Assembly (NCBI GenBank): GCA_944384125.1
Contig: CALWSF010000013.1
Coordinates: 1-64,000, forward strand
DNA: 64,000 bases
Reading direction: 5' to 3'
Source of the DNA: an uncultured Lachnospiraceae bacterium
Lineage (GTDB): Bacteria; Bacillota; Clostridia; Lachnospirales; Lachnospiraceae
Shown piece after piece: positions 14,391-17,300 of the stretch. The stretch's first letter is position 1; each line of letters opens with the position of its first letter. A program made the position numbers and the translations under genes. The notes under the pieces are model-generated. The model was given only the letters and a program-made list of their open reading frames with translations, was not told where the DNA came from and searched no databases.

Positions 14391-14446
14391 AATAATGGAG
14401 TGCTGCAGGATTATCTGAACTGATAACCGGGCAGCACTCCATTATT
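14391..14446. terminator. Bidirectional terminator
   Basis: AATAATGGAGTGCTGC (14391-14406) pairs perfectly with GCAGCACTCCATTATT (14431-14446), and TTATC/GATAA pair inside the loop. It ends the HPr-like gene on the plus strand (TATTTAT follows) and the permease gene on the minus strand, whose stop codon lies in the stem. Confidence 0.85.
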
Positions 14447-15608
14447 ATTTATCCCGTCTTTTTTTACAGTCCTTTCTGTTCAGTCTGCGGTTCACATCCT
14501 CCCTGAGCAGGGTGTAGAGAACTGAACACAGCGGGATAAAAACAAGCATGCCGATAATTCCCATCATACTGCCGCCGATCGATACTGCCGCCAGCACCCA
14601 GATGGACGGGAGACCCACTGAATTTCCGACAACATGAGGGTATATCAGATTACCCTCTATCTGCTGCAGAACAAAAAACAGAATAGTAAACCAAACCGCC
14701 TGTATCGGGTTCGTCATAAGCATCAGGAAAATACCTACCGCACACCCTATAAATGCTCCGAAAATAGGAATCAGGGCTGTAAAAGCAATCAGAACTCCTA
14801 TGAGAAGAGCATAAGGAAGTCTTAACAGGCTCAGTGAAACAAAAAACATGAAGCCAAGTATAACCGCCTCCATACACTGCCCCGTCAGAAAGCGTGAAAA
14901 TGTCTGTTCCGTCAGACGACTGATGCGAAGAACCTCTTTAACTGTCGATTCAGGCAGATAGGCACGCAGCATTTTTGTGATTTGACGTGCCAGATTTTCT
15001 TTCTGCAGAAGAATATAAATGGCAAAAATAAAAGCGATACTGAACGCCGTAAGGCCGCTGGCAATCGACATGGCAGCTGTCAGCGTGGAGGACAGAACCG
15101 TCCCCGCTCCTGTCGTCACAAAGCCTGCAATTTTTTCCAGTGTCTCTTTCCAGTCAATTTCAAGCTGCATCCCATCAATATAAGAAAAGATCTCCGGATA
15201 CTGTTTAAACTGATGCTCCAGAAAACCGCGAAGGTTAGTAAAAAACTGCGGAATCAGATCCTTGAGTCCCAGAAGTGTATCGGTAATCTGAGGCACAACC
15301 AGAAAAAACACTACCCCCAGAACAAAAATCAGGAGGAGAATGGAGAGAAAAAGACTGACAGGTCTTTTCCATTTTTCTTTCTCCCCGAACCGCCTCCCAC
15401 GGCGCCCGGAGAGAAGTTTTTCAATCCGCCGCATAGGTACATTCAAGATAAATGCGATGGCTGCCCCTGCCAGGAACGGAACAAGAAGGCGAAAAACCCA
15501 TCCCAGAAAATCCAGGACTTTTTCAAAGCGCAGCGCTACTCCCAGAAGCACAATCGTATACAGAACCAGAAGCATAATACGCTTCATTGTTTCTCTGTTC
15601 AGCTCCAC
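14445..15608 (-). CDS. AI-2E family transporter (UPF0118/YtvI-like permease)
   Basis: A 387-residue integral membrane protein of the AI-2E exporter/PerM superfamily. It has the family layout: paired N-terminal membrane helices (IMLLVLYTIVLLGVALRF, LLVPFLAGAAIAFILNVPM), a helix near 90, a long soluble section, then a C-terminal block of about four helices including YPHVVGNSVGLPS. The cargo is unknown; members export AI-2 or act as Na+/H+ exchangers. GGAGG lies seven bases before a GTG start at 15608, which overlaps the end of the AlaX gene by 10 bp. The two are therefore translationally coupled; the pairing has no obvious functional meaning. Confidence 0.82.
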   Translation of the reverse strand: MELNRETMKRIMLLVLYTIVLLGVALRFEKVLDFLGWVFRLLVPFLAGAAIAFILNVPMRRIEKLLSGRRGRRFGEKEKWKRPVSLFLSILLLIFVLGVVFFLVVPQITDTLLGLKDLIPQFFTNLRGFLEHQFKQYPEIFSYIDGMQLEIDWKETLEKIAGFVTTGAGTVLSSTLTAAMSIASGLTAFSIAFIFAIYILLQKENLARQITKMLRAYLPESTVKEVLRISRLTEQTFSRFLTGQCMEAVILGFMFFVSLSLLRLPYALLIGVLIAFTALIPIFGAFIGCAVGIFLMLMTNPIQAVWFTILFFVLQQIEGNLIYPHVVGNSVGLPSIWVLAAVSIGGSMMGIIGMLVFIPLCSVLYTLLREDVNRRLNRKDCKKRRDK

Positions 15609-16928: not shown

Positions 16929-16956
16929 ACAGTGGCAAGCAGCCGATCATATGATG
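16929..16956 (+). promoter_or_regulatory. Sigma-K-like promoter of the Cys/Gly-rich protein
   Basis: AC (16929-16930), a 17-base spacer and CATATGATG (16948-16956) match the mother-cell sigma-K pattern AC-N16/17-CATANNNTA except for the last base. No convincing vegetative promoter was found upstream of this gene. The leader would be about 26 bases, ending in GGAGGA. Confidence 0.4.
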
Positions 16957-16988
16957 GAGTGTAAAGAAAATCTCGGAGGAACAAAACT

Positions 16989-17237
16989 ATGAGTGATTTG
17001 GCAGCAACAAACTGCGGATGTGGATGTGAAACCAGCGGGGGCGGCTGCGGCTGCAACATTATCTTCCTGATTCTCATCTTACTTTGCTGCGGCGGTGGAT
17101 GCGGCGGCGGCTGCTTTGAACATAACTGCGGCGGCGGCTGCGGCGGATTTGGAGGCGGATGTGAATGCCTTATCTGGATTCTGCTGCTTTGCTGCTGCTG
17201 CGGCGGCGGTGGAAACGGCGGCGGATTCTGCTGCTGA
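16989..17237 (+). CDS. Cys/Gly-rich microprotein, possible spore-coat structural protein
   Basis: An 82-residue protein with about 19 Cys and 27 Gly, over half its length. Blocks of CGGGC, CGCGC and GGGC alternate with two strongly hydrophobic segments, NIIFLILILLCC (about 23-34) and CLIWILLLCCCC (about 59-71). Only the first eight residues (MSDLAATN) and FEHN in the middle are polar. I know no biochemically studied family; similar high-cysteine ORFs occur in clostridial genomes. The composition suggests a self-crosslinking or metal-loaded structural protein. CTCGGAGGA before ATG is an excellent ribosome site, and a strong terminator follows, so this is a single-gene unit. It is unlikely to be chance, despite overlapping repetitive GGC triplets. 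Confidence 0.7.
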   Translation: MSDLAATNCGCGCETSGGGCGCNIIFLILILLCCGGGCGGGCFEHNCGGGCGGFGGGCECLIWILLLCCCCGGGGNGGGFCC

Positions 17238-17264
17238 TTTTCTCAGAAACCAGCCCAGTGAAAT

Positions 17265-17300
17265 GCGGCCCGGCATTTTTGTGCCGGGCCGCGTCTTTTT
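17265..17300 (+). terminator. Strong terminator of the Cys/Gly-rich gene
   Basis: GCGGCCCGGCA (17265-17275) pairs perfectly with TGCCGGGCCGC (17282-17292), followed by GTCTTTTT. Confidence 0.9.

Follow-up and report, generated by a model that had tools for sequence, protein, structure and literature searches.

The question raised by this locus is what a very small, free-standing gene for a cysteine- and glycine-rich protein does in an uncultured member of the Lachnospiraceae. The gene lies in a window of 64,000 nucleotides, the whole stretch of DNA analysed here, on one (C13) of the 141 contigs of a 3.4-Mb genome, and has a single match in that genome. Its open reading frame of 82 codons begins with ATG and occupies positions 16989–17237 of the forward strand, stop codon included. 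It is preceded on the same strand by the Shine–Dalgarno sequence CGGAGGA (16974–16980) and followed by an intrinsic terminator (17263–17294), a 14-pair stem-loop with a folding energy of −30.0 kcal/mol and then a T-run. The encoded protein contains 19 Cys and 27 Gly and lacks Lys, Arg, Pro and Tyr; its charged residues are four acidic ones and one His. A conserved N-terminal signature, MSDLAATNCGCGC (16989–17027, forward strand), is followed by two hydrophobic modules of the same strand, NIIFLILILLCC (residues 23–34, 17055–17090) and CLIWILLLCCCC (residues 60–71, 17166–17201), in which the hydrophobic segments NIIFLILILL and LIWILLL are flanked by Cys/Gly blocks. The first-pass annotation had described a product of this size and composition, its two hydrophobic segments, a good ribosome site and a terminator, and all of these are present. 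The span it assigned, 16929–17300, does reach from the −35 element to the end of the terminator, but only 16989–17237 is coding.

As a single query, the protein finds matches in 122 of 299 genomes of the same bacterial family, a sample spanning 298 genera; a profile of 38 rows (A1) finds them in 188. Pfam and NCBIfam assign no family to the protein and no common family to 38 members, which gave scattered weak single-member matches only, and none of their models for metallothioneins or other named Cys-rich families was matched. We collected 110 loci (L001–L110), labelled Lachnospiraceae for the most part: one from the genome itself, 29 from a whole-protein search and 80 from a seeded search. 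All 110 proteins start with MS[DE][LV]xAT[NQ]CG, a count biased towards that motif at the 80 seeded loci, whose seeds held part of it, but not at the 29 others. Merging identical proteins leaves 103 distinct ones, and Ala6 and Cys9 are fixed in all 103 with varied codons (GCA 53, GCT 42, GCG 7 and GCC 1 for Ala6; TGT 67 and TGC 36 for Cys9). Because residues are fixed under varied codons, and because the promoter is conserved at loci chosen by their protein, the gene goes beyond chance. The comparison indicates that selection acts on the family at the protein level and that the gene is real and conserved. The reading frame, the conservation of which had been proposed as a check, is thus kept across the bacterial family; the Cys spacing, proposed for the same purpose, is kept in the N-terminal CGCGC and varies elsewhere in the 38-member alignment.

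The 103 proteins are 51–89 amino acids long, with 8–21 Cys (median 15) and a net charge of −2 to −5. Lys occurs in none of them and Arg in 20, both being absent from 83. Two hydrophobic-Cys modules, of which CLWIILLLFCCGG is an example, are found in most of the 38 aligned representatives; one member (L099) has a single module, and another (L019) carries a near-perfect internal duplication.

The loci were picked by their proteins, so that the upstream DNA serves as a separate witness. Upstream of the 82-codon gene, on the forward strand, AC at 16929–16930 forms a −35 element of the sigma-K type; a 17-nt spacer (16931–16947) contains GGCAAGC, a block common to many relatives; the −10 element CATATGATG (CATANNNTR) occupies 16948–16956, and a TGTAA block, close to where transcription probably starts, occupies 16960–16964. 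The stretch from the −10 element through the TGTAA block (16948–16964) reads CATATGATGGAGTGTAA. The C of CATA lies 41 nt, and the last base of the −10 element 33 nt, before the ATG. The promoter, AC-N17-CATATGATG, is the sigma-K-like one of the earlier description, with a final G where the sigma-K −10 of the CATANNNTA type has A. In the genome itself CATANNATRNNNTGTAA has two sites, one of them at this gene, against one site for the reversed control, and is therefore not a common motif there.

The same arrangement recurs in relatives, the first-pass annotation having named promoter conservation as a check. AC-N16/17-CATANNNTR, with final A or G, is found in 91 of the 103 distinct upstream regions, whereas 50 shuffles gave a mean of 0.5 and a maximum of 3. 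CATANNNTR by itself occurs in 99/103 (7.0 in shuffles), AC at a spacer of 16 or 17 in 94/103, TGTAA in 95/103 (12.1 in shuffles), [AG]CAAGC in 45/103 (4.5 in shuffles) and GGAGG in 103/103, and the chosen CATANNNT lies 37–46 nt before the ATG in 102/103. In the per-column upstream profile CATA and the −10 T are fixed by the anchor, so that only the other columns are informative. AC at 16 or 17 was also present at all of five further loci of the bacterial family (L111 and L113–L116). In Clostridioides difficile, sigma-E and sigma-K are reported to have the same −10 element and to differ at −35, ATA against AC, and cotA and cotE are given as sigma-K-dependent (PMC3789822). The sigma-E-type ATA occurs at spacers 14–17 in 2 of the 103 upstream regions. 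Promoters for sigma-E, sigma-F, sigma-G or sigma-A were rejected as candidates, strict patterns for these factors matching 0/103. The assignment to the sigma-K type is well supported by these counts. The conservation of [AG]CAAGC and TGTAA exceeds what sigma-K needs, and these blocks might be a site for SpoIIID or another regulator; GGCAAGC in the spacer presumably resembles a SpoIIID-like core.

The distribution of the family follows that of sporulation. When the same 299 genomes were scanned with TIGR02846, a sigma-K model, 203 matches reached E ≤ 1e-20; five of these, with E near 1e-21, were set aside as probable paralogues, and the curated cut-off is passed by 46 of the 299 only. Both a strong match and the protein are found in 186 genomes, the protein only in 2, the sigma match only in 12 and neither in 99 (Fisher p=1.3e-62, kinship ignored, and whole-clade loss of sporulation can inflate such an association). 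With the five matches kept, the counts are 187, 1, 16 and 95 (p=9.7e-60). Flagellin, another patchy trait used as a control, shows no association with the family (96, 92, 60 and 51 in the same order, p=0.63). The family is restricted to spore formers: 186 of the 188 genomes that carry it have a strong sigma-K/sigma-E match, and the other two (G042 and G174) have SpoIVA, which is absent from all eight genomes tested among those with neither.

The genome under study has a full-length TIGR02846 match at 2.0e-87 and a next match at 1.8e-74, which is probably sigma-E, as the weaker of the strong matches elsewhere probably are. We rechecked 26 genomes with a best match of about 1e-76 or weaker, with G000 and G099 as yardsticks. 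In 21 of the 26 we found a second strong match of the sigma-K/E type (E below 1e-37), in many cases split in two, and in five none (G006, G130, G214, G286 and G295), among which G130, G214 and G286 have the protein. Since TIGR02846 also catches sigma-E, the safe claim is that the family goes with the mother-cell sigma factors of sporulation; this tie is well supported across the genomes, and sigma-K itself can be seen in nearly all cases. Three of the 12 genomes with the sigma match only (G107, G127 and G263) have a family member below the threshold, and among the other nine G006, G018, G064 and G146 are at most 78% complete. The remaining five (G021, G037, G115, G273 and G295) are at least 92% complete and show no member; the gene is therefore no general requirement for sporulation.

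Of the 26 rechecked genomes, 11 have the TIGR02846 match split into two halves on one contig, with a break near model position 109–129 and about 3.5–25 kb between the halves, as in G222 (C1:659043–659399 and 679202–679486). The others are G024, G030, G032, G033, G067, G172, G194, G202, G217 and G247, and the split genomes include a species of the host's own genus. It looks from these matches as if sigK were interrupted by skin-like elements, of the kind described for B. subtilis and C. difficile.

Beyond the bacterial family, a search of the order matched 32 of 146 genomes, 25 of them outside the family. All four out-of-family loci that were fetched (L117–L120) keep the two-module body and differ at the N-terminus. 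CATA[AG]GATA and TGTAA are present at L118–L120, AC at 16 or 17 at none of these three. ATA stands at spacer 15 instead of AC at the sister-family loci L118 and L120 and at the divergent L132; L119 has neither, and at L117 and L126 no CATANNNT is found within 110 nt. This suggests promoters of the sigma-E type at L118, L120 and L132. The sister families thus keep the −10 element and TGTAA, with a sigma-E-like −35 at two of the three loci, and a switch of sigma factor between them and the members considered above is possible. At the level of the phylum, profile A1 matched 3 of 298 other genomes, all weakly. Some sigma-positive genomes also contain small ORFs that start with MNC..LLLLL (L129 and L136) or MNNQWIIII (L130) and continue with Cys and charged residues; these are possibly other Cys-rich spore families.

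The surroundings of the gene vary. In the window both neighbours lie on the opposite strand: upstream is an AlaXM-like gene for alanyl-tRNA editing and downstream one resembling precorrin-8X methylmutase, each scoring below the curated cut-off of its model; the gene therefore looks like a single-gene unit, in agreement with its earlier description as isolated. Five of six nearby ORFs scanned have model matches, including a YtvI/AI-2E-like permease, the AlaXM-like gene and cobalamin genes, and the sixth has none. The permease (14445–15608, reverse strand) scores 93.9 bits with the sporulation protein YtvI model, below the cut-off of 198.15, and similar permeases also precede the family gene at some other loci. 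The commonest neighbours in relatives are small genes without a name. One such gene lies downstream at 78 of the 110 loci and a second at 68 of those, counts obtained by clustering that include some spurious ORFs. The first encodes about 150 amino acids ('..HLQMLKAALPY..') and the second about 95 ('..WKxDPRLKxMDPKKL..'), as seen at L002, L018 and others. In the genome under study the pair lies away from the 82-codon gene, on contig C18 (L142:3410–4311, reverse strand). We rejected it as a guide to function: absent beside this gene and belonging to no named family, it says little. In 44 upstream regions of the first gene that were examined, CATANNNT occurs in 40, a sigma-E-like pattern in 7 and a sigma-K-like one in 2, figures that carry no shuffle control. 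Between the family gene and the pair lies a short ORF of the opposite strand (at L002, L016–L018, L031 and elsewhere) which repeatedly begins M..RL[IV]I[DE]GN[AS]VYEIDE[ED]C; in the genome under study the same ORF accompanies the pair, inside a forward-strand ORF (L142:4347–4697).

What, then, does the gene encode? Because the product is small and very Cys-rich and its promoter is of the mother cell's sigma-K type, a component of the coat or exosporium is the simplest reading. The first-pass annotation had arrived at the same reading, to which the comparison of relatives lends strong support. We consider it likely that the gene specifies a small structural protein of the spore envelope, transcribed by sigma-K in the mother cell, self-assembling and cross-linked by disulfides. 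From these features we infer the timing, the location on the spore, the self-assembly, the cross-linking and what the N-terminus does. Sigma-K RNA polymerase would transcribe the gene in the mother cell at a late stage of sporulation, and the product would gather on the surface of the forespore. The two short hydrophobic modules would pack together or onto other coat layers, and the cysteines (19 here, a median of 15 in the family) would lock the assembly through disulfides once the lattice aligns them, a mechanism already put forward for CsxA and ExsY/CotY. The invariant start of the protein, MSDLxATNCGCGC, probably serves in docking or recruitment.

Unrelated Cys-rich proteins are described as self-assembling into robust, probably disulfide-linked arrays around spores, and many more Cys-rich spore proteins have been proposed to do likewise (PMC7333573). 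CsxA of the exosporium of Clostridium sporogenes and C. botulinum group I is Cys-rich, located at the spore surface, self-assembling and probably locked by disulfides (PMC7333573), a likeness that for the present family is drawn from sequence. CsxA differs in having 25 Cys and a crystalline hexagonal array established by experiment, against Lys-free proteins of 51–89 amino acids here, and its gene, unlike the 82-codon one, often lies beside collagen-like and glycosyltransferase genes (PMC7333573). CdeC and CdeM of the C. difficile exosporium are likewise Cys-rich proteins of the outer spore layer (PMC7677010, PMC6101409), and CdeC is reported to form organised inclusion bodies in E. coli from which it is released by DTT (PMC7677010). 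The three weak phylum-level matches of profile A1 set the family apart from them, within a sample of 298 genomes among which C. difficile is not known to be. In size and architecture CdeC and CdeM differ from the present family. CotY and ExsY of the Bacillus cereus group are Cys-rich as well and belong to the basal layer of the exosporium (PMC5434927, PMC8546674). No Pfam or NCBIfam match links the family to them, a separation made by model searches alone; for homology with CsxA, CdeC or CotY/ExsY in general, model searches rather than pairwise ones gave no common family across 38 members. A profile search of PDB sequences gave no good match, the best being a transmembrane protein at E=0.089, and a search of Rfam gave nothing useful. 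Similar Lachnospiraceae proteins carry, we assume, the automatic RefSeq product label 'chorion class high-cysteine HCB protein 13'. This label refers to insect eggshell proteins, and a full-text literature search for it gave a silkworm context only among the matches listed.

Three alternatives remain, in the order of a membrane peptide, a metal-binding protein and a RiPP. The first, which we hold to be unlikely, is a small membrane-active or membrane-anchored peptide of the mother cell that would reside in the outer forespore membrane or aid mother-cell lysis, rather than a building block of the coat. Bacilli make tiny hydrophobic sporulation peptides, and their tiny proteins of the YjcZ type resemble the family in their tie to sporulation, their Gly-rich N-terminus and a short hydrophobic run; they differ in having one such run and few Cys, and the family has no NCBIfam match that would link it to them. 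The two very hydrophobic segments fit such a peptide, and so does the weak phylum-level match L122, a product of 42 amino acids, about 14 of which form a single hydrophobic stretch. A low-confidence AlphaFold model of the 82-amino-acid protein with 23 relatives renders both segments as short helices; with a mean pLDDT of 43.5 it is uninformative and so leaves room for this reading. The segments, however, run for only about 7–10 residues before CC or GG, which is short for a bilayer, anchoring charges are few given the scarcity of Lys and Arg, and a median of 15 cysteines would be left unexplained.

The second alternative, somewhat more doubtful still, is a metallothionein-like spore protein or thiol buffer, which would load Zn, Cu or Fe or scavenge oxidants at the spore surface. 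Disulfide formation and metal binding are indistinguishable from sequence, and the abundant cysteines, with CxC and CCC runs, together with the four acidic residues and the His, are consistent with a metal ligand. The Cys clusters, on the other hand, are broken up by hydrophobic runs, their spacing is variable outside the N-terminal CGCGC, and no metal-handling gene was found among the six neighbouring ORFs scanned, nor was a metal transporter or regulator recognised by eye among 22 flanking ORF groups of relatives. A RiPP precursor or secreted antimicrobial, which the short Cys/Gly-rich product with an invariant N-terminus as a potential leader might recall, is very improbable given the promoter of sporulation type, the permease, AlaXM-like and cobalamin genes around it, the nameless small genes of its relatives and, as noted in the first-pass annotation, the lack of RiPP modification genes, to which we add export genes, among the six ORFs scanned.

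For the structural spore protein, a literature search, mostly of titles and abstracts, returned analogues only and nothing that could be tied to the family. The idea of spores tiled with Cys-rich proteins is not new; the compact, Lys-free and mostly two-module family appears to be a new version of it. The literature searched yielded, among the matches listed, no spore proteome from this bacterial family, and little seems to have been described of the outer spore layers of commensal gut spore formers. Most members would escape tryptic proteomics, since Lys is absent from all 103 and Arg from 83 as well. A gut small-protein study of 2026, as described in PMC13376575, used trypsin digestion and searched fully tryptic peptides only. 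It is plausible that missing trypsin sites, in those 83 members, explain the absence of the family from proteomes. More speculatively, and with the balance against it, the family may be a major block of the spore surface widely shared among the dominant gut spore formers: a hydrophobic, disulfide-locked film of short repeated modules, a Lys-free minimal material like silk or eggshell, overlooked for want of a Pfam or NCBIfam model and, mostly, of a trypsin site.

The Lys-free and mostly Arg-free members expose a blind spot of proteomics. The spore envelope enables strict anaerobes to survive outside the gut, and a family that accompanies the sigma factors of sporulation in many genera would be a concrete, testable component of that envelope.
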